From Nocardioides bizhenqiangii (GTDB lineage Bacteria > Actinomycetota > Actinomycetes > Propionibacteriales > Nocardioidaceae): DNA of 64,000 bases. The notes under the pieces were generated by a model, which was given only the letters and a program-made list of their open reading frames with translations, was not told the origin of the DNA and did no database searches. Within the stretch, counting starts at the first letter, position 1; every line of letters starts with the position of its first letter. The position numbers and the translations under genes were made by a program. This document shows positions 2,535-23,468 of the stretch, one piece after another. The stretch is from NCBI RefSeq assembly GCF_034661235.1, contig NZ_CP141059.1, positions 3,781,501 to 3,845,500 of the forward strand. Direction: 5' to 3'.

Positions 2535-5500
2535 CTACCCCTTGCCCGCCGCACGACTCACCGCGCGCCGCCACGCGGACGGTCTGGTCGACACGGGTTG
2601 CGCGACCCTCTCCGGGATGCGTCGGAGCAGCGGGGCGCCCTTGCGGTCGACGAAGAACCCGCCGCGGTGCACTGGGGCGGCGCCCTCCCAGATGTTCAGG
2701 TGCAGCTCGTCCGCGGCGAGGAAGTCGGGCAGGACGGGGATCCGGAAGCCGTGCGCACCACGACCGGGGACGTCCTCCAACGAGCGGTCGAGGACGTCGG
2801 CCGGCACCACCAGCAGCGGCTCGTTTCCGCGCATCACGGCGACGTGGAGGATCCGGTCCGGCTCCTCGCGATCCCACGCCCAGCCCGAGAGCCAGTCACC
2901 CTCTGCCCAGCCTCCAGCGGGACGACTCGACGGCCTGAGACCGGATCGGGGGTCGGTGGCGGCCGCCGCTGGCGCGGCCTGCAGGAGCGCCCGGCTGCGC
3001 TCGACGACGACCGACGAGTCGGTGGGCACGTTCTCGATCGTCCATTCCGCGCGCTCCCCCTTGGGTGCCCCGGGCGGCCGTTCCATGAGCTCGGCAATGA
3101 TCCGCGCCGACAGCGCCGGCGTGCGGCCCGAGACCGCGAAGGTCCTGGGACCGATCTTGTTGACGCGCAGGAAGACGTTGCGGAGCTTCTCCTCGCCGTC
3201 GTAGAGCCCCCAGATGAGCGGGTACGACGTTGCCGGGCTCCAGGTGTCGGGTAGTCGGAGCACCGAGATGCTGGCATAGCTGTCGGTGCCCTCGACACCG
3301 CGGGTGGCGACGAGCTCGGTCGGCACCTCCTCGTCTCGGACGAGGAGTCGACGCTCCCCCGGTCCGCGCGCGTAGAACCAGAGCTCGCCGAGGGTCGTAT
3401 GGAGACCGATGATCACCCGGCGGTGCTTCGCGAGCTGGATGCTCTCCGGGTCCCACGTCGCAGGGGTCAGCCACTGGGTCGAGTCCCGGTCGACCGTGTC
3501 GGTGCGCAGCAGCCACTCGCTCACCGCGCCCACGGGCGCGGGCTGCCGGTCCGGCGTGCTGCTCAGAGCGGCGAGCAGCACCTTGCGCTGCGACAGGGGC
3601 GAGGCGTCGATGAGGGGCTTCGCCTTGAGATAGGCGTACATCTGGTCGGACGTCAGCTCGCCGGCGGTCTCGTCCGCGGCCGACCAGGACAGCAACTGCT
3701 CGGGCAGCACCAGCAGGTCGTGGCCGTCCTCCGCCGCGCGGGTGACGTACTCGTGGACGATGCCGTGGCGGGCGTCGTACGGCTCGAAGCCGCCGATGAC
3801 GTCGAACATCTCCTTGCGGAGCGCGATCACCTCGGGCCCGTAGGCCCGGGAGGTGAGAATCTGGGACGCGACGTCGCCGCCGAGCGGCATGCCGACCTTG
3901 GTGTCGTCGGTCGCGAAGAACGTGGTGAACAGGGTCGAGGGCCGGTGGCTCAGCGCCAGCCGCGCCGCAGCGAAGAAGCCGAACTGCGGAAGCGTGCTGA
4001 GCCCGTCGGCGACCAGCATCGCGTCGGACGACTGGGCCGCGGCCAGGGTGTTGAGCGCGGTGCCCGAGGTCTGCCCGAGGCAGTTGACGACCGCGAGGTT
4101 CGGGCACCCCTCCTCGATGAGGCCGCGGACCTTCTCGATCGCGGTGCGCACGCCGACGTCGGTGTAGCCGAGCACCAGCTCGTCGGGCGGCTCGGCGTGG
4201 CAGGCCTTGACCAGCTCCTCGAGCGCGTCGCTTCGGCGGACCAGCGCGACGTAGCTGACCGAGCCGACCGGATCTGCCGGCTTGTCGACGCCCTCGATCA
4301 GACGGGCGATCGCTTTGGTGCTGCCATGCTCCTCGATCTGCTCGCCGAGGTAGGCGTGGAAGCCGTACCAGACGTCGAGGTTGTCGTCGTTGGAGAACTG
4401 AGGGTGGGCGATCATCTGTCCTTCGCGGAGGGCGATCGCGAGCCGGTCCGCCAGGTCCTGCGCGGTGGGCTCGACCAGGCAGGCGGCGTGGTCCCGCTCC
4501 GCGACGAGCTCCGGCGTGCCACCGACGGAGGTCGCGATGAACGGCACCCGCTGTTCCAGCGTCTCGTAGACAGCCATCGTCGAGTTCTCGATGAGCGACG
4601 GCATGACGGCAATCAGGTCGCGCGAGGTGAGGAAGGCGAGTGCCTCGGGCTGGTTCTTGTCGGTGACCGTGACGACCGGGCACTCCCACGACTCGGCCTT
4701 GTCGACCAGATACATCTCCGGCGACATCCCGCCCTGCGCCTGCAGCTTCCCGCCCCACTTGCCGAGAAAGGTGACCGAGTCGGGGATCTCGCCACGCTCG
4801 TGGAGCAGGTCGATCGCGTTGCAGAAGATCTCGATGCCCTTGCGCGCCTCGAGGCGTCCGAAGAACACGAGGTCGCGGCTCTTCACCACGTCGCCGTGCT
4901 GGCGGGGCGGGCCGGGGCGTCGGTCGACCACGGGGACGTTGGAGAAGTCGACGATGTTGGGCTGCACGAAGACGTTGGTGGGGGGCAGTCGGTAGCCGAT
5001 CCGCTCCATGAACGACAACAGGTGGGCGGAGCCGCCGATCACCATGTCGGCGAGCTCGACGCACTTCTGCTCGGCGTACGCCGCGGCGACCAGGTTGGTG
5101 TCGGTGATCGGCAGCATCTGGTAGTGCCGGTTCCAGATGTGCGGGGACGACGTCTTGACCAGGAACAGGGTGTCGCGGAACGCCAGCCCGAGCCTTTTCG
5201 CCATCAGCGCGTAGACCAGGCCACCCCGCCACTCGGAAGTGTGGACGACGTCGAACGGCTCTTGGTCGCGCAGCCACTCGTAGGCGCTGGCGTAGCGGCG
5301 CTGCCAGTTCGGGGACGCACACCACAGGGGCGACTCGGAGACGTCGAGGTAGTGCAGTGTCACGCCGAACTCGGCGTACCTCTCCACCCAGAACTCGGGG
5401 GTCTCGTCCTGCACGACCGGGCCCTTCAGGAAGAGCACGTGCACCTCGTGGCCCTGGGCGGCTAGACCCTTCGCCAGGTGGTAGTACGTCGACGCGATGC

Positions 5501-5627
5501 CGCCGTTGCGCACCGGACCGATGATCTCCTCGGTCACGATCGCGACGCGGAGTCGGCTCGGCGCTTCGCTCAATCCCACGGACTCGATCCCGGGGAAGCG
5601 CCTCACCTTGAAGTCGTCGCGTTGCAT
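2535..5627 (-). CDS. Two-domain glycosyltransferase (GT4 plus GT2-like region)
   Basis: A 1030-residue cytosolic protein, over twice the usual GT4 length. Residues about 27-430 form a GT4 domain: VAIVTEEIIGPVRNGGIAS opens the first Rossmann fold, and LIENSTMAVYE then SVGGTPEL forms the nucleotide-sugar E-x7-E region. Residues about 490-720 resemble a GT2-type fold (YVALVRRSD, then GGFEPYDARHG), with weaker motifs. The last 300 residues match nothing I know. The ATG at 5627 has GGGAGA just upstream. The gene diverges from the LCP gene and lies 165 bases upstream of the duplicated methyltransferase. The acceptor is unknown; a surface glycan is likely from context. Confidence 0.8.
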   Translation of the reverse strand: MQRDDFKVRRFPGIESVGLSEAPSRLRVAIVTEEIIGPVRNGGIASTYYHLAKGLAAQGHEVHVLFLKGPVVQDETPEFWVERYAEFGVTLHYLDVSESPLWCASPNWQRRYASAYEWLRDQEPFDVVHTSEWRGGLVYALMAKRLGLAFRDTLFLVKTSSPHIWNRHYQMLPITDTNLVAAAYAEQKCVELADMVIGGSAHLLSFMERIGYRLPPTNVFVQPNIVDFSNVPVVDRRPGPPRQHGDVVKSRDLVFFGRLEARKGIEIFCNAIDLLHERGEIPDSVTFLGKWGGKLQAQGGMSPEMYLVDKAESWECPVVTVTDKNQPEALAFLTSRDLIAVMPSLIENSTMAVYETLEQRVPFIATSVGGTPELVAERDHAACLVEPTAQDLADRLAIALREGQMIAHPQFSNDDNLDVWYGFHAYLGEQIEEHGSTKAIARLIEGVDKPADPVGSVSYVALVRRSDALEELVKACHAEPPDELVLGYTDVGVRTAIEKVRGLIEEGCPNLAVVNCLGQTSGTALNTLAAAQSSDAMLVADGLSTLPQFGFFAAARLALSHRPSTLFTTFFATDDTKVGMPLGGDVASQILTSRAYGPEVIALRKEMFDVIGGFEPYDARHGIVHEYVTRAAEDGHDLLVLPEQLLSWSAADETAGELTSDQMYAYLKAKPLIDASPLSQRKVLLAALSSTPDRQPAPVGAVSEWLLRTDTVDRDSTQWLTPATWDPESIQLAKHRRVIIGLHTTLGELWFYARGPGERRLLVRDEEVPTELVATRGVEGTDSYASISVLRLPDTWSPATSYPLIWGLYDGEEKLRNVFLRVNKIGPRTFAVSGRTPALSARIIAELMERPPGAPKGERAEWTIENVPTDSSVVVERSRALLQAAPAAAATDPRSGLRPSSRPAGGWAEGDWLSGWAWDREEPDRILHVAVMRGNEPLLVVPADVLDRSLEDVPGRGAHGFRIPVLPDFLAADELHLNIWEGAAPVHRGGFFVDRKGAPLLRRIPERVAQPVSTRPSAWRRAVSRAAGKG

Positions 5628-5736
5628 CTGTCTCCCGGGTGCCGGTGGCTGGGGGCGCCATTGCCGCCATGACAATATAGGAGCGACACCCGGGGGCACC
5701 GACGCTTCCTTCGATTCAGACCGGGGAGAACGCCAG

Positions 5737-6795
5737 GTGGATTCACGTGAAGACGCTCCGAACGACGACCGACCGGCGGAGCCTCCCACCTCGAAGAGCC
5801 ACCGTGACCGTTCCGGAGGTTTCATTCGTCGTCACAAGGCGCTGACGGTCCTCATCGCGCTGGCGACCGTGGCCGCCGTCGTGGTGGCTGGCCTCGGCAT
5901 CTGGGTGTGGACCCTGAACAACAAGATCGACGACATCCCGCGGGTCGACGTCGACCTCGAGCGCGACGACCGCCCGGACCGCACGCAGCCGAAGGACGCG
6001 CTCAACGTGCTCCTGGTCGGGGTCGACGGCCGGGGGACGGACGTCCGACAGCGACTCGAGGAGGGCGACACCGGCCTGCTCAGCGACACGATGATGATCT
6101 GGCACCTCGAGGAGGACCACCAGAACAGCCAGGTGGTCTCCTTCCCCCGCGACTCCTGGGTCGACATCCCGGGCTACGGCGAGGCCAAGCTCAACGCAGC
6201 CTTCTCGTACGGCGGGCCGGAGCTGCTGGTGCAGACCCTGGAGGACACGCTCGACATCTACATCGACCACATCGCCGTCGTCGACTTCGAGGGCTTCAAG
6301 GGAATCACCGACACCCTCGGCGGCGTCGAGCTCGAGACCGCCGGCGGCGGGACGCAGAACTACGACGGCGAGGAGGCGCTGGAGTACGTCCGCGAGCGGA
6401 AGTCGCTCCCCGCCGGCGACTTCGACCGCATCGACCGGCAGCAGAACTTCCTGCGCCAGGTCCTGCACGAGGCCACCCGCACCGGGACCCGGATGAACCC
6501 GTTCACCGTCGACAACCTGATCGGGGACCTCGGCCAGCTGCTGGTGCTCGACGACGACTGGAGCAACGGTGAGATCCGGGACCTGGGGTTCGACGTGGTC
6601 ACCCAGGGCGCTGGCGACGTCGTCTGGATGACCGCCTTCAACAACGGCACCGGCACCTCCGCCGACGGCCAGAGCATCGTCCTGCTCGATGTCGAGAAGA
6701 CCAAGGAACTGATGGCCGCCATCTCGCGGGACGAGTTCGAGGACTACCTCGAGGACAACAGGATCGACCGCCTCCCCAAGCCGGAGGACGTCCCC
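5737..6795 (+). CDS. LytR-CpsA-Psr (LCP) family cell-wall glycopolymer ligase
   Basis: A 353-residue protein ending at the TGA 6796-6798. A basic N-tail is followed by one transmembrane helix (about residues 34-58), then an extracellular LCP domain: DALNVLLVGVDGRGTD, LSDTMMIWHL, SFPRDSWVDIPGYG and KLNAAFSYGG are the family's lipid- and phosphate-binding segments. LCP proteins attach undecaprenyl-linked glycopolymers to peptidoglycan outside the membrane. The GTG start has GGGGAGAA 6 bases upstream. Its head-to-head place with the large glycosyltransferase suggests that it ligates the polymer made by the flanking glycan genes. Confidence 0.92.
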
Positions 6796-6798
6796 TGA

Positions 6799-7107
6799 GC
6801 GTCGCTGGTCGAGACTCCTCGAGCTGACGGTCGTCGGCCGGGGAAGGACCGGCCAACCCGGCCCGACGGTCACCCGCCGGGTCTTCCCGAGGACCGCGAC
6901 CACGGCACCCGAAGCGCGCCTTCGCGCGCCCCCGCACGAAAGCGTCGTGCGTGTCGCACCGGCTGACGAACGTCGTCATCCCTGCCGTCATACGCATCGT
7001 GCGATGACGTGCCATCCGATCGATCGGGAGCGTGACACCCGCAACCGCAGCCCGACTTGCACGGACACCCACCGGCACCGGGCACCCACCTCACGAAGGA
7101 ATCAAGG
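6799..7107. other. Intergenic region upstream of the MFS pump
   Basis: This 309-base stretch has no convincing gene. It holds a weak hairpin (GGCCGG stem, 6836-6854) that may end LCP transcription, the palindromic repeat site at 6986-7015, and the pump's ribosome site (GAAGGA, 7095-7100). Confidence 0.6.
6986..7015. promoter_or_regulatory. Palindromic 30-base site, copy 1 (likely operator)
   Basis: The sequence runs CGTCAT, a spacer containing CATCGTGCGATG, then ATGACG, followed by TGCCAT. CGTCAT and ATGACG are inverted repeats 12 bases apart, and CATCG/CGATG form an inner pair. By my count 27 of 30 bases match the site at 11479-11508. It lies 92 bases before the MFS start. A site for the MalT-like regulator encoded between the two copies is the simplest reading; no binding is shown here. 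Confidence 0.7.
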
Positions 7108-15909: not shown

Positions 15910-17637
15910 TCACCTCGGCGGCAGGCGCCGTAGGGCGAGCATGGCGATGTCGTCCGCCGCGCCCGCGCCGCGGAGGGCGGTGAGAAGAGAGGTCAGCAGG
16001 TCGTCGACCGGCTCGTGGCCGTGCCGCCGCGCCGCGTCGACCAACCGCCGGATGCCGGTGTCGATGTCCTCGCCGCGTCGCTCGACCAAGCCGTCCGTGT
16101 AGGCGACCAACGTCGATCCGGGCGGCATCGTGAACGTCGTCGACCGGTACGACGACGCGCCCACTCCGAGCGGAGGACCGACCGGAATCGCCACCTGCTC
16201 GCTGCGGTCCGTCGAGATGAGCAGCGGGAGCGGATGGCCGGCGCTGGCGACGACGACCTCGCCCGTGCGCCAGGCTCCCAGGCCGACGACCGCGGTGGTG
16301 ATGTGGTCGTCCACCGTGACGTCGAACTGGCGCGAGCACTTCTCGAGCGCCTCGTCCGGGGTGTTGCCGTCGACGAGGTAGGCGCGGAGCGTGAACCGCG
16401 CCCGCGCCATCTCGGCCACGGCGTCGACTCCGCGACCGGAGACGTCGCCGACGACGAAGCCGAAGTGGTCCTCCCCGATGTCGATGACGCTGTACCAGTC
16501 GCCCCCGATCTCGATGCCTTCCGTGCCGGCGACGTACTTGGAGGCGATCTCGATCTGCGGGATCGGCGGCATGACCTGCGGCAGGAGCGCTCGCTGCAGA
16601 CGCACGAACACCGCCCGCTGCTCCTCGTAGAGGCCGTTGATCTTCTGGTAGAGCGCGTTGATCGTCGCCGAGTCGGTCTCGACCCGGCTACGGATGCCGA
16701 CCCGCTGGCGAACGACGAAGGCCGTGGCGATGGTCAGCAAGAGGCCGCCCGCAAGCAGGATCAGCCAGAGGCGGTGGCTCAGCGAGCTGCCGAGATGCTC
16801 GTCGGGCCGCGTCACCAAAGTCAGCACCGTGTCGCCGAAGGGGATCTCCTCCGCCGCGGTGCGGCCGTCGAGGGGAAGGTCCGCGGGGTCGACGTTGGTC
16901 GTCGTCATGTCGACGAGCCGGGTTCCTTCACCGAAGTAGATGGCGTAGTCGATGTTGGCGTACGCCGAGTCGCGGTCGACCGGAGCCCGACGATCGGTCG
17001 GGAGCGCTCTCTCGACCTTCACGACGAAACCGGTGCCCGGGTCGGCGAGCGCGTAGGCGATCCGATCCTGCCGACCCGCCGACACGCGCTCCACCACCGA
17101 CGTCTCGGCTTTCAAAGCACGGCTGAGGAAGTCCTGGACCTCCGGCCCGCGAGGATCCATTCCTGGCGGCCTCCCGAGTGCTGCCAGACGCGTCAGCGTG
17201 CGCCCGTCGCGACGCCACAGCGAGGCCGAGACGAACAGGGCGTCGTCACCGACGTTCGCTGCGAACGCGCGGCGGAAGACCGAGGGGTCGCCGTCGGGGC
17301 CGGCTGTCGCCTGCACCTGCAACGCCGTGGTCAACGGCTGCTCGATGACGAGGATCGCGGTGGAGAGCACCGTCGCCGCCTGCCGCGTCTGGGTCTCGAG
17401 CAGGCGGTCCTCCGTCGACATGTCGGCGCGATAGGCCGCCCACGCGGAGACGCCGGTGAGGACCAGACCGACCAGGACAGTGATGACGACCGCCCGCGCC
17501 GGTCGGCTCGCACCGCGCCCGGCAGCGGGTCCGGCGCTGACGTCGTCGCGGACCTCGACGGGACTGTCGCTCGGCTGGATCGCGGGAGGCGTCGGCTCGG
17601 AGGCGGTCTCTTGCCGCTCAGGTGCTCGCGACGCCAT
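15910..17637 (-). CDS. Membrane-bound SpoIIE/RsbU-type PP2C serine phosphatase with extracytoplasmic sensor
   Basis: A 575-residue protein. A basic, disordered N-tail leads to helix 1 (VVITVLVGLVLTGVSAWAAY, about residues 50-70), a sensor region of about 240 residues outside the membrane, helix 2 (LWLILLAGGLLLTIATAFVV) and a coiled linker. The PP2C domain follows: GGDWYSVIDI, GDVSGRGVDA, AYTDGLVERR and DDIAMLALR hold the metal-binding aspartates. Such phosphatases dephosphorylate STAS anti-sigma-factor antagonists. Its ATG lies inside the end of the STAS gene, so the two are translationally coupled. AAGGG precedes the start. Confidence 0.92.
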   Translation of the reverse strand: MASRAPERQETASEPTPPAIQPSDSPVEVRDDVSAGPAAGRGASRPARAVVITVLVGLVLTGVSAWAAYRADMSTEDRLLETQTRQAATVLSTAILVIEQPLTTALQVQATAGPDGDPSVFRRAFAANVGDDALFVSASLWRRDGRTLTRLAALGRPPGMDPRGPEVQDFLSRALKAETSVVERVSAGRQDRIAYALADPGTGFVVKVERALPTDRRAPVDRDSAYANIDYAIYFGEGTRLVDMTTTNVDPADLPLDGRTAAEEIPFGDTVLTLVTRPDEHLGSSLSHRLWLILLAGGLLLTIATAFVVRQRVGIRSRVETDSATINALYQKINGLYEEQRAVFVRLQRALLPQVMPPIPQIEIASKYVAGTEGIEIGGDWYSVIDIGEDHFGFVVGDVSGRGVDAVAEMARARFTLRAYLVDGNTPDEALEKCSRQFDVTVDDHITTAVVGLGAWRTGEVVVASAGHPLPLLISTDRSEQVAIPVGPPLGVGASSYRSTTFTMPPGSTLVAYTDGLVERRGEDIDTGIRRLVDAARRHGHEPVDDLLTSLLTALRGAGAADDIAMLALRRLPPR

Positions 17638-17959
17638 CTGAGCCCTTGTTGGCGAGGCGGACGTCGAAGACCGCGGCGAGGCCGGTGACCTCGAGCAGCC
17701 GGTAGGTGCTCGCCGTCACTCCCCCGAGCGTCAGCGAGGCACCGTTGCGGGCGGCCTCCTTCAGCAGCTGGACGAGTGTCCCCAGGCCGCTCGAGTCGAT
17801 GAACTCCACGCCCGACAGATCGAGCACCACGGACTCACCGTCCGCGAGGCACGGTCGGACCGCCGCCGCGAGGTCCTGGGCGGTTGACAGGTCGACCTCT
17901 CCGACCGCGCGCACCACCGTCGAACCGTCGACACTGGTGTCCTGAGAAAACTGAGCCAC
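17618..17959 (-). CDS. STAS-domain anti-sigma factor antagonist (SpoIIAA/RsbV type)
   Basis: A 113-residue single STAS domain. The phosphorylation motif EFIDSSGLGTL carries the serine that an RsbW-type kinase would modify, and VVLDLSGV is the strand before it. When dephosphorylated, such proteins bind the anti-sigma kinase and free a sigma factor. The GTG start has AAGGGGG at 8 bases. The phosphatase gene overlaps its last 20 bases, so the pair forms one signalling unit. No RsbW-like kinase or sigma factor is in the window. Confidence 0.93.
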   Translation of the reverse strand: MAQFSQDTSVDGSTVVRAVGEVDLSTAQDLAAAVRPCLADGESVVLDLSGVEFIDSSGLGTLVQLLKEAARNGASLTLGGVTASTYRLLEVTGLAAVFDVRLANKGSDGVAST

Positions 17960-19199: not shown

Positions 19200-20984
19200 A
19201 TGCACTTCGTCGGAGTCGACCTCGCGTGGGGCGACCGCAAGCCCACGGGCCTCGCGGTCCTCGACGACGAGGGTCACCTGGTGCAGGTGACGGCCGCGAC
19301 CACCGACGACGAGATCGTCGAGGCGCTGGCGCCCTACCTCGAGTCGGACTGCCTGGTCGCGATCGATGCGCCCCTGATCGTCGTGAACGCGAAGGGGAAC
19401 CGACCGGCCGAGGCCGCGCTGAACAAGGACTTCGCCCGGTTCGACGCCGGCGCGCACCCGTCCAACACCGGCAAGCCGGAGTTCCGCGACCAGCCGCGCG
19501 GCGCCCGGATCGCGGCTCGGCTGGGTCTCGACATGAACCCGCGGTCGGGAAGACCCCGGCGGGCGATCGAGGTGTACCCGCACCCGGCGACGGTCGCGCT
19601 GTTCCGCCTCGGGCGCACGCTGAAGTACAAGAACAAGCCCGGCCGCGACCTCGAGCACCTCCGCGCCGAGCTGATCGTGCTGGTGGGCATGATCGAGGGC
19701 CTCGCCGCCGCTGACCCGCCGCTCCTGGTCGACGGCCCCCCCGGCGAGCAGAGCCGCCCGTCGGTCTGGCAGGCGCTCCGCGACACCGTCGCGACGGCGA
19801 AGCGCAAGAGCCAGCTCCGGGTCGTCGAGGACCAGGTCGACGCTGTCATCTGCGCCTACACCGCCCTGTTCCGGGAGCGCCGTCCCGCGGACACCACGAC
19901 GTACGGCGACTTCGAGGGCGGCTACATCGTCACGCCGACCCTGCCCCCCGACCTCGCGGCGACCCCGTTGGGTGCGAGCCCATCGGCGCCACCCCTCGAC
20001 CCCGGCGCCGCGGTGCGGGAGTACGCCGAGCACCACGCCGACCTGCGGCTGGCGGCGGACCAGTACGTCGCCATGGTGACGTCCATCCTCGACGACGCCG
20101 GCATCAACTACCTGACGGTCACCGGCCGCGCGAAGTCCGTCTCGTCGTTCGCCGCCAAGGCCGCTCGCGTCGCCGACGGCCGGCCGGTGTTCACCGACCC
20201 GCTGCGGGAGATCACCGACCAGATCGGCGTACGCGTCATCACCTACGTGCACAGCGACGTCCAGGCCGTCGCCGACCTGCTCGAGGACCAGGTCGTGGTC
20301 TACGACGACCGCGACCTCGGCCAGGAGACCGCCGGTGAGGGCCGGTTCGGCTACGCCAGCCGCCACCTGCTCGTCGGCCTCGACCCCGTGCGGGAGGGCC
20401 AGGACGGCTACCAGCTGCTGCGCGGACGACAGGCGCAGATCCAGATCCGCACCGTGCTGCAGCACGCGTGGGCGGAGTTCGAGCACGACATCCGCTACAA
20501 GGGCACCATCCCCGACGAGCATGTGCCCGACTTCGACCGCCGGTTCACGCTCGCTGCCGGGCTGCTCGAGCTCGCGGACCGTGAGTTCTCCACGATCCGG
20601 GACCGGCTGCGCGACGGGATGGCGGAGGCTGCCGCCGACGCCGAGGACGACGACCCTCGGATCAGCCCGCGCGAGCTCGCGGCGTTCCTCGCCGGGCAGT
20701 ACGCCGACTCCGGGTGGTCACGCACCGAGCACTACGCCTGGATCTCGGGCCTGGTCCTCGAGCTCGGCATCTCGTCCCTGGGGGAGCTCGGTGACCTGGT
20801 GCGCGCTGTCGACGCCGACGAGCTCAAGGCCCGGATGGACTACCGCTACCCGCCCGGCGCCGTACGCCGCCTCGACGACGCACTGCTCTGGACCTATGGC
20901 GACACCTACGTCGACCTGCGCGCCAACGCGCACCGGGTGCCCGCGCTGCGGACCCGGCTGGCGAAGATGCGTGGAGCCGGCTGA
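19200..20984 (+). CDS. DUF429 RNase H-like domain fused to RelA/SpoT (p)ppGpp synthetase domain
   Basis: A 594-residue two-domain protein. Residues 1 to about 240 form a DUF429 domain, a predicted RNase H-fold nuclease: GVDLAWG (Asp7), AIDAPL, VYPHPATVALF and EDQVDAVICAYTA carry the expected acidic positions. After a Pro/Ala linker, residues about 290-470 form a RelA/SpoT synthetase domain: GRAKSVSSFAAK (R-x-K-S), TDQIGVRVI, GYASRHLLV and QIQIRTVLQHAWAEFEHD. The usual catalytic Glu in E-x-QIRT is Gln (residue 413). There is no HD hydrolase or ACT/TGS region. One uninterrupted frame encodes both parts. The ATG follows a GGCAGG-like site. Mycobacterial RNase HII-RelA/SpoT fusions are the known analogue, with a different nuclease family. 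Confidence 0.85.
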   Translation: MHFVGVDLAWGDRKPTGLAVLDDEGHLVQVTAATTDDEIVEALAPYLESDCLVAIDAPLIVVNAKGNRPAEAALNKDFARFDAGAHPSNTGKPEFRDQPRGARIAARLGLDMNPRSGRPRRAIEVYPHPATVALFRLGRTLKYKNKPGRDLEHLRAELIVLVGMIEGLAAADPPLLVDGPPGEQSRPSVWQALRDTVATAKRKSQLRVVEDQVDAVICAYTALFRERRPADTTTYGDFEGGYIVTPTLPPDLAATPLGASPSAPPLDPGAAVREYAEHHADLRLAADQYVAMVTSILDDAGINYLTVTGRAKSVSSFAAKAARVADGRPVFTDPLREITDQIGVRVITYVHSDVQAVADLLEDQVVVYDDRDLGQETAGEGRFGYASRHLLVGLDPVREGQDGYQLLRGRQAQIQIRTVLQHAWAEFEHDIRYKGTIPDEHVPDFDRRFTLAAGLLELADREFSTIRDRLRDGMAEAAADAEDDDPRISPRELAAFLAGQYADSGWSRTEHYAWISGLVLELGISSLGELGDLVRAVDADELKARMDYRYPPGAVRRLDDALLWTYGDTYVDLRANAHRVPALRTRLAKMRGAG

Positions 20985-21131: not shown

Positions 21132-23468
21132 ATGACCAGCACACCCAGCGCCACTGCGGTGGCCGGCACGCGTCGCGGCGCCGTGTTCGACGGGGCCGTC
21201 TGTGCCGTCGGTCTGGCGATCTTCGTCGTCGCGGTCGTGGCGGTGGCTCAGGACGGGTTGACGCACATCGCGCCGGCGCTGGTCGGCATCCCTGTGATCT
21301 TGATCGTCTCCCGGTTCCCGCTGGTCGTCGACAACAATGACGGCGGCATCGAGGTCGGCTTCGACTCCTGCGTCCTGATGTTCCTGCTGTGCACGCTCCC
21401 CGCACACGACGCGGTCTTCATCTGGTCGCTCGGCGTGATGGTCACCCAGCTCACCACGGGCAAGCTGTGGTCGTCGAAGGCGTTCAACATCGGGGTGGGG
21501 ATCATCGCAGGCAGCATCGCTGCCGCCGTGGTGACGGCGGGTCGAGGCGACTCGATCGGCACTGGGCGCGAGCTGGCCGCGGTGATGATCGCCGCGGTCG
21601 CCTACTTCGCCACCGACTACGTCATGTCGGCGGTGTCGGTCGGGATCAGCTCGGGCACCGCCATCCGACGACACCTGCTGCAGCGGGGGACCTGGCTGGC
21701 GGTCGCCTGTTTCGTCCCGTTCGACACCCTCGGCTACCTGGGCGTGGTGGTCCACAGGGCGACGCCGGGTTGGATGCTGATCCTGCTCGCCGTACCACTG
21801 GTCACGCTGCTCGTCGCCACCCGCGCGGTGACCCGCGCCCGGGAGAACGCGCGTCGCCTGACGGTGCTGTTCGACGCCGCCGTCCGGGCGCAGACGCACA
21901 CAGACCGGGAGCGCGTCGTGGGCGCGTTGGTCGAAGACGCTCGGGACCTGCTGCACCTCCGCCGGGTCGCGGTCCGGTCGACACCGCCCGACGGCGGTGA
22001 GATCGGCGCACGTGTCAACGACGAAGAAGAGCCGCGTTGGCTGGTGGCGAAGGCTCTGGGCCGCGCCCGCTCGACGATCGCCGCGGACGAGCAGGCGCTG
22101 AGGGCGCTGGGTGCGGTCGCGTCGGACGCCTTCGCACGGCTTGCGCTCACCGAGGAGATGGTGCACGTCGCTCGCCATGACCCGCTCACCGACCTCCCTA
22201 ACCGAGGCATCCTGCTGGATCGGTTGCTGGAGGCCCAGGCGAACGCCCGGAAGAACGGCACCCAGGTGACGTTGCTGTTCATCGACCTGGACGGCTTCAA
22301 GCCGGTCAACGACCGGTTCGGCCACGCAGCAGGTGACGCCGTTCTGGTCGAGCTCGCCGACCGGTTGCGGTCCTGCGTCCGTGAGTGCGACACCGTCGCC
22401 CGACTGGGAGGTGACGAGTTCGCGGTCCTGATCGAGGGTGCCGAGGTCGCCGAGGTCGAGGAGATGTGGGCGCGGGTGCTCGCCGCCACGCGGCGGGGAG
22501 TGCTCGTCGCCGGTCACCTGCTGCCGCTGAGCGCGAGCGGCGGCATCGCCTTCGGGGGACCGGGCGACGACGCCGAGGGTTTGTTGCGCAAGGCGGACCT
22601 GGCCATGTACGAGGCGAAGGCTCGCGGCAAGGCCCGGGTGGTGGTGTACGAGCACGCCATCGGGCGGGCTCGCGTCGAGCGGCTCGAGATGGTCGACGAC
22701 CTGCGCCGCGCGGTGGCCCGGGCCGAGATCGAGATCGCCTACCAGCCCATCGTCGACGTCGACTCCGGACGGATCGCCGGCGCCGAGGCACTGGCACGGT
22801 GGCGCCGTGACGGGGTCCCGGTCTCGCCCGAGCTGTTCATCGGGATCGCCGAGGAGAGCGGCCTGATCGTCGACCTGGGAGAGTCCGTGCTCACCGCGGT
22901 CGCCGCCGATGCCGCCGTGCTCCACGACCAGATCGACGGGCCGTTCGTCATGACCGTCAACATCTCTGCGCGCCAGCTGCGCGAACCCGGCTTCGTGGAG
23001 CTCGTCGCGAGATCTTTGACCGCCATGAACGGCACCGCGCTGGTGCTCGAGATCACCGAACGGCAGGGGATCGACCTCGACCCGCTCGTGCTCGACGCGA
23101 TGCACGCGATCGCGGCCATGGGCGTCCGGTTCGCCATCGACGACTTCGGGGTCGGGTTCTCCTCGATCAGCTACCTGCGGGACATCCCGGTGCAGATCAT
23201 CAAGGCCGACGGATCGCTGTCGCACGCCATCGACTCGGATGAGCGTGCGAGCGCGCTGCTCCGGTCGGTCGCGCACATGGGTCGTTCGCTCGGCTTGGAA
23301 GTAGTCGTCGAGGGGATCGAGCGGGAGGCACAGCTGACGGTGCTCCGCGACCACGGCCACCAGTTGTATGCACAGGGTTTCCTCCTCCATCGCCCGATGC
23401 CGATCGACGACCTGCTCACGACGTTGCGTGGTGACCGTACGACGAGCGCACTGACGTCCGTGTCCTGA
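21132..23468 (+). CDS. Membrane GGDEF-EAL cyclic-di-GMP protein
   Basis: A 778-residue protein. About eight N-terminal helices (residues 15-240) form a MASE-like sensor, followed by a GAF-like or coiled linker. The GGDEF domain has an intact RLGGDEF active site with an RECD inhibitory I-site five residues upstream. The EAL domain has EALARW, NISARQL, EITERQ, DDFGVGF, IKADGSL and VVEGIE, so the metal and substrate residues are present. Both synthesis and hydrolysis of c-di-GMP are possible. The ATG at 21132 has GGAGAAG at 7 bases; a second in-frame ATG at 21069 is weaker. A symmetric terminator follows it. Confidence 0.93.
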   Translation: MTSTPSATAVAGTRRGAVFDGAVCAVGLAIFVVAVVAVAQDGLTHIAPALVGIPVILIVSRFPLVVDNNDGGIEVGFDSCVLMFLLCTLPAHDAVFIWSLGVMVTQLTTGKLWSSKAFNIGVGIIAGSIAAAVVTAGRGDSIGTGRELAAVMIAAVAYFATDYVMSAVSVGISSGTAIRRHLLQRGTWLAVACFVPFDTLGYLGVVVHRATPGWMLILLAVPLVTLLVATRAVTRARENARRLTVLFDAAVRAQTHTDRERVVGALVEDARDLLHLRRVAVRSTPPDGGEIGARVNDEEEPRWLVAKALGRARSTIAADEQALRALGAVASDAFARLALTEEMVHVARHDPLTDLPNRGILLDRLLEAQANARKNGTQVTLLFIDLDGFKPVNDRFGHAAGDAVLVELADRLRSCVRECDTVARLGGDEFAVLIEGAEVAEVEEMWARVLAATRRGVLVAGHLLPLSASGGIAFGGPGDDAEGLLRKADLAMYEAKARGKARVVVYEHAIGRARVERLEMVDDLRRAVARAEIEIAYQPIVDVDSGRIAGAEALARWRRDGVPVSPELFIGIAEESGLIVDLGESVLTAVAADAAVLHDQIDGPFVMTVNISARQLREPGFVELVARSLTAMNGTALVLEITERQGIDLDPLVLDAMHAIAAMGVRFAIDDFGVGFSSISYLRDIPVQIIKADGSLSHAIDSDERASALLRSVAHMGRSLGLEVVVEGIEREAQLTVLRDHGHQLYAQGFLLHRPMPIDDLLTTLRGDRTTSALTSVS

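Follow-up and report, generated by a model that had tools for sequence, protein, structure and literature searches.

A probable Nocardioides relative of mycobacterial RelZ, joining a DUF429 domain to an alarmone synthetase with a predicted change at its metal site

The window analysed here, a stretch of 64,000 nucleotides from Nocardioides bizhenqiangii, contains a gene in which a DUF429 domain precedes a small alarmone synthetase (SAS). Its presence raises two questions, namely whether this fusion arose independently of the one known from mycobacteria, and what has become of a synthetase in which the glutamate of the ExQIRT motif is replaced. Our analysis indicates that the encoded protein is probably a Nocardioides relative of RelZ (MS_RHII-RSD) that shares the function of that enzyme and carries a synthetase with a changed metal site. 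Proteins of this kind are known: studies of the relative in mycobacteria go back to 2012, and the DUF429 fusion has been in print since 2011-2012. What we add is a corrected relationship, a RuvC-like predicted fold for the nuclease half, the loss across the clade of one predicted Mg2+ ligand, and a C-terminal domain without a Pfam family.

The gene occupies one unbroken frame on the forward strand, from an ATG at 19200 to a stop codon ending at 20984, and encodes a protein of 594 amino acids and 65.1 kDa (Table 1). The Pfam model of DUF429 (PF04250) matches residues 5-224 (E 7.3e-28, 98.2 bits, cut-off 23) and that of RelA_SpoT (PF04607) matches residues 309-435 in the same frame (E 2.8e-14, 53.8 bits, cut-off 27). 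The open reading frame and the two domains thus confirm an earlier note on this DNA, made from the sequence alone, which had placed both parts in a single frame at these positions. In 109 of the 110 fused loci that we extracted (L004-L113), at least 500 residues align in one frame; the frame is therefore no sequencing artefact. The exception is a locus of Nocardioides sp. TF02-7 (L074, 10001-11785), in which the fusion gene is split over several frames (four tblastn pieces), as a pseudogene or through an assembly error. An AlphaFold model of the whole protein (83 input sequences) reached a mean predicted local distance difference test (pLDDT) score of 91.6 and comprises a mixed alpha/beta region (residues 1-246), a short linker with some disorder, the synthetase (about 268-477) and a set of helices (about 486-591), the relative placing of which is not settled by the model, given its predicted template modelling score (pTM) of 0.61. 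For the C-terminal helical domain, the model reached a pLDDT of 88.1 and a pTM of 0.82; the domain has neither a Pfam match nor a PDB match at E <= 0.001, and it is conserved after the synthetase in both RelZ-type and stand-alone actRel-type proteins. A search of the whole host genome returned a single DUF429 match and two RelA_SpoT matches, the window protein and the long Rel (motif EMQIRT); a separate RNase HII is encoded elsewhere in that genome (G000:C1:1588537).

The nearest named homologs of the window protein are from Nocardioides. With RelZ of M. smegmatis (MSMEG_5849) it shares the order of DUF429 and SAS in one chain of 64-65 kDa, and by its domains it fits the definition of the actRel subgroup, which is actinobacterial and includes synthetases with an N-terminal DUF429, that of M. 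smegmatis among them (Atkinson 2011, PMC3153485). The link between the two names is already visible in the literature: the RNase HII activity of MSMEG5849 has been attributed to the domain Duf429 (PMC4429107), the nuclease domain of RelZ carried the DUF429 label until 2012 (PMC4300193), and a 2014 survey of the RNase H superfamily recorded DUF429 with RelA/SpoT in Actinobacteria and filed DUF429 in the RuvC/YqgF clade (PMC3985635). M. tusciae is listed among the ortholog-bearing species in a review of RelZ (PMC7591505). Its ortholog (P0157) matches both DUF429 and RelA_SpoT, and neither this protein nor that of the window has a match to PF01351 (RNase_HII) at E <= 1, so that the 'RNase HII' of RelZ is the DUF429 domain. 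The earlier note had taken the window's nuclease to be unrelated to that of the mycobacterial RNase HII fusion, a view that the M. tusciae ortholog and the trees described below contradict. Correcting this naming trap matters in practice, as a predicted fold like that of RuvC makes branched DNA, alongside RNA-DNA hybrids, a substrate to be considered for the domain.

Over their aligned length, the window protein and the mycobacterial fusions are 56-62% identical. Trees of the two halves (68 rows each, 49 of them fused, with the M. smegmatis protein itself outside them) place both in one family for either half, which indicates that these fusions are of common descent and removes the case for convergent coupling that had been proposed for this locus. 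In the DUF429-half tree two changes of architecture suffice, and stand-alone mycobacterial halves sit among mycobacterial fusions. In the synthetase-half tree stand-alone proteins branch from within the fused ones, with at least 6-7 changes of architecture, three of them forced by strong branches. Most simply, these trees would reflect an ancient fusion that was split on several occasions, although they do not prove in which direction the changes went.

A protein search yielded 3199 matches at E <= 0.001 among 7998 candidates scored. Each of the 120 matches listed, the protein of the window among them, has the two domains and spans 99-100% of the query. On GTDB contigs, relatives are encoded at 454 places, and the 80 best of these were retained. 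Of 393 genomes of the class Actinomycetes, 134 gave a match of some kind and 32 a full-length fusion, while stand-alone halves at 48% identity or more number 13 for the synthetase and 17 for DUF429. The fusion is present in 121 of 395 genomes of a genus (f5:g10) that we take to be Mycobacterium, since the M. tusciae protein is a 100% match to one of its genomes. In another draw of 297 genomes from this genus, 249 have some match and 89 an essentially full-length one; the remaining matches listed are the DUF429 half alone, save for a fusion truncated where its contig ends. The DUF429-synthetase family is thus widespread in Nocardioides and other actinobacteria, beyond the mycobacteria. In the presumed Mycobacterium genus, DUF429 proteins that stand alone and share about 48-61% identity with the window's N-terminal half (for example L134-L146) were common where the fusion is absent. 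The clearest case of a fusion that has come apart is a single assembly (G337) with a synthetase half 83% identical to that of the window (L114, 5001-6602, reverse strand): its DUF429 match is gone and nearly the whole domain lost. At this locus the stretch MQFVGVD, resembling the first seven DUF429 residues, abuts the part preceding the synthetase. Overall, natural stand-alone halves are 48-83% identical to the window protein, which suggests that either half can persist on its own.

The second question concerns residue 413, where the presence of Gln in place of the motif's Glu, as the earlier note had read it, was borne out. That note had also called for other fusions to be found and scored at this site, and in the search we ran Glu occurs in none of the 398 fused proteins that were scored, which have Q (197), S (191), A (9) or T (1) instead; one further fused protein keeps it (L133 in G066, 4998-6824, reverse strand). 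By its Gln413 the window protein departs from canonical SAS with the ExQIRT motif; the Glu is present in all 60 SAS inspected from a genus that we take to be Corynebacterium. Window and mycobacterial relatives differ here as Gln and Ser: Ser was found in 125/125 proteins matched by mycobacterial queries and in 44/44 loci, two sets that overlap. By contrast with Glu, Asp340, Gln415 and Arg417 are kept in 397-398 of the 398 fused proteins, Asp340 in all of them. In SaRelP the Mg2+ ligands are Asp107 and Glu174, to which Asp340 and Gln413 are predicted to correspond. Gln413 therefore appears to be the normal state of its clade, not decay, and the synthetase half is RelQ/RelP-like with the other checked motif residues kept. 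In a look for an acidic residue that might compensate, several acids differed, for example Asp370 (D in 61/61 rows without Glu and in 5/67 rows with it), and we claim none of them.

This change may bear on a reported and unexplained difference between two related enzymes. RelS of C. glutamicum has no activity without Mg2+, and its activity rises more than 10-fold from 10 to 50 mM (Ruwe 2017, PMC5566576); the same paper refers to synthesis by MS_RHII-RSD as Mg2+-independent and regards the assignment of the two enzymes to one subgroup as functionally questionable. The protein that we take to be RelS (Cg2324, in G852; 38.89 kDa computed, against 38.9 kDa in the paper) has the motif FEVQVRT, which fits the 'slight deviations' from ExQIRT mentioned there. 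This actRel synthetase continues C-terminally like its aligned relatives and, unlike the window protein, lacks DUF429 and keeps the Glu; RelQ/YjbM and RelP/YwaC lack both DUF429 and such a C-terminal domain, and the Glu of SaRelP is a Mg2+ ligand. We hypothesise from these two enzymes that dependence on Mg2+ would go with the ligand, which RelS keeps and which is missing from the clade of RelZ, the enzyme reported to be independent. Loss of Glu to Gln, Ser, Ala or Thr with Asp340 kept would explain why RelZ is reportedly Mg2+-independent and RelS strictly dependent. It is conceivable, and we propose it tentatively, that enzymes of the RelZ clade carry out the RelA/SpoT pyrophosphate transfer at a metal site rebuilt after an ancestor lost one of two side-chain Mg2+ ligands. 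If this is true, alarmone could be made even while nucleic acid at an R-loop being cut sequesters Mg2+, and the natural variants (Gln, Ser, Ala, Thr, and Glu in L133) form a ready-made test series. A literature search on ExQIRT, actRel and MS_RHII-RSD showed us no paper that links Glu loss with Mg2+ dependence.

In the nuclease half, a second look at the one whole-protein model with VIA-align showed that the predicted fold of the DUF429 domain resembles RuvC Holliday-junction resolvases at 14-18% identity. Five acids are conserved in the 398 fused proteins (D7 in 397, D56 in 395, E124, D211 and D214 in all 398) and are presumably metal ligands. D56 is replaced by Asn in two loci (L056 and L064) and is also missing from L074, the frameshifted gene, which was scored from one frame only and there has non-D letters at residues 7 and 56. 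By predicted fold and the conserved acids of its presumed active site, the DUF429 half belongs in the RuvC-like branch of the RNase H-like superfamily. Our literature search found none that treats RelZ together with RuvC. The two Kineosporia loci with Asn for the near-invariant Asp56 (L056 and L064) also have Ala at the ExQIRT Glu position.

The window protein would be expected to act as M. smegmatis RelZ does, an enzyme reported to be a hexamer that cuts R-loops as well as RNA-DNA hybrids, that makes pGpp, ppGpp and pppGpp with a preference for GMP, and whose pGpp synthesis is inhibited by single-stranded RNA and pppGpp (PMC7591505). R-loops or related structures would form under conflict between replication and transcription, and the DUF429 half may cut these or act on nucleic acid that is branched. 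Production of pGpp, ppGpp and pppGpp by the synthetase half could help stalled RNA polymerase off, and the freed single-stranded RNA, as well as pppGpp, may turn synthesis down. As the synthetase is predicted to have lost one Mg2+ ligand, replaced by Gln in Nocardioides and by Ser in mycobacteria, synthesis may run at low free Mg2+. The link between R-loop processing and alarmones suggested by the earlier note is in this respect plausible.

Several points weigh against the interpretation of the protein as a RelZ relative with shared function and a changed metal site. The proposed mechanism is taken over by homology from RelZ, and the Mg2+-independence of RelZ is reported at second hand. The residue of M. 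smegmatis RelZ at the 413 site is probably Ser, judging from its relatives; no protein named as M. smegmatis was among the matches listed from two protein searches with mycobacterial queries. The branch carrying the 413 change has a support of 3%, the synthetase tree has four long end branches for which the program warns of false joins, and L133 is placed differently by the two half-trees. All 50 Foldseek rows shown for the whole-protein model are synthetases; the likeness to RuvC comes from the second look. Finally, isolated domains of mycobacterial RelZ are reported to be inactive (PMC7591505), a report with which the natural stand-alone halves fit poorly.

Table 1. Positions of the relZ-like gene and its features in the window
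Feature	Position	Strand	Description
relZ-like gene	19200..20984	+	DUF429 (RuvC-like predicted fold), small alarmone synthetase and C-terminal helical domain
N-terminal DUF429 domain	19200..19937	+	residues 1-246; predicted fold RNase H-like, similar to RuvC
Presumed nuclease-site acids	19218..19841	+	D7 19218-19220, D56 19365-19367, E124 19569-19571, D211 19830-19832, D214 19839-19841
Linker	19938..20000	+	residues 247-267; partly low confidence, pLDDT <50 at 259-262
Alarmone synthetase (SYNTH) domain	20001..20630	+	residues 268-477
Asp340	20217..20219	+	predicted Mg2+ ligand (= SaRelP Asp107 by motif and spacing); D in 398/398 fused proteins
Gln413	20436..20438	+	CAG; in place of ExQIRT Glu (by spacing = SaRelP Glu174); predicted loss of a Mg2+ ligand
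C-terminal helical domain	20655..20972	+	residues 486-591, about 105 residues; common to stand-alone actRel-type synthetases (alignment)

Alternatively, the protein could be an anti-phage effector, a RuvC-like nuclease that senses or cuts phage nucleic acid and is coupled to alarmone-type growth arrest. The two halves match the PADLOC candidates PDC-S44 (residues 1-251, 8.7e-81) and PDC-S33 (3.2e-7), PDC matches also occur in the M. tusciae protein and in three stand-alone halves scanned, and the presence of the fusion is patchy (32/393 genomes of the class). We consider this role unlikely, however, as the PDC set is a candidate list with no defence role shown (PMC11514479), and the published phenotypes concern R-loop and ultraviolet stress and antibiotic tolerance (PMC7591505). 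The genes flanking the window gene encode an M14 carboxypeptidase (upstream, opposite strand) and a GGDEF-EAL protein (downstream); conservation of either beside the gene was not seen in 67 other loci, each occurring in at most 4 of them. When loci are compared in pairs, neighbourhoods are shared in 15/15 pairs that are at least 90% identical, 18/38 at 80-90% and 127/1838 below 80%. Close relatives are in this unlike a fast-moving island, and inheritance thus appears mainly vertical among them; the window shares no neighbourhood with the other 61 loci.

We also think it improbable that decay has turned the synthetase half into a poor enzyme, or into a nucleotide sensor regulating the nuclease, with Gln413 as its mark. 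A predicted Mg2+ ligand has indeed been lost, but the loss extends through the clade while Asp340, Gln415 and Arg417 stay, stand-alone synthetase halves without Glu persist, and the characterised member of the clade is reported active. The suggestion of the earlier note that the domain is weak or a nucleotide sensor is consequently unsupported. A toxSAS-like enzyme, with tRNA in place of nucleotides as the substrate of pyrophosphorylation, is very unlikely. A conserved adjacent antitoxin gene was sought: no non-overlapping window open reading frame of at least 100 amino acids recurs in more than 4 of 67 loci, shorter genes not being covered. An independent joining of DUF429 and RelA/SpoT is scarcely credible. 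The architecture changes in the synthetase tree could by count alone include more than one gain, but such a joining is largely contradicted by the relatedness and identity of both halves and by the two changes needed in the DUF429 tree.

Two further features of the window may be mentioned alongside the fusion. The GGDEF-EAL (cyclic-di-GMP) protein just downstream of the alarmone gene is encoded at 21135-23468 on the forward strand. On the reverse strand, at 15910-17959, lies a SpoIIE-type phosphatase gene with a small anti-sigma-factor-antagonist-like gene upstream of it, together a possible partner-switching stress module.
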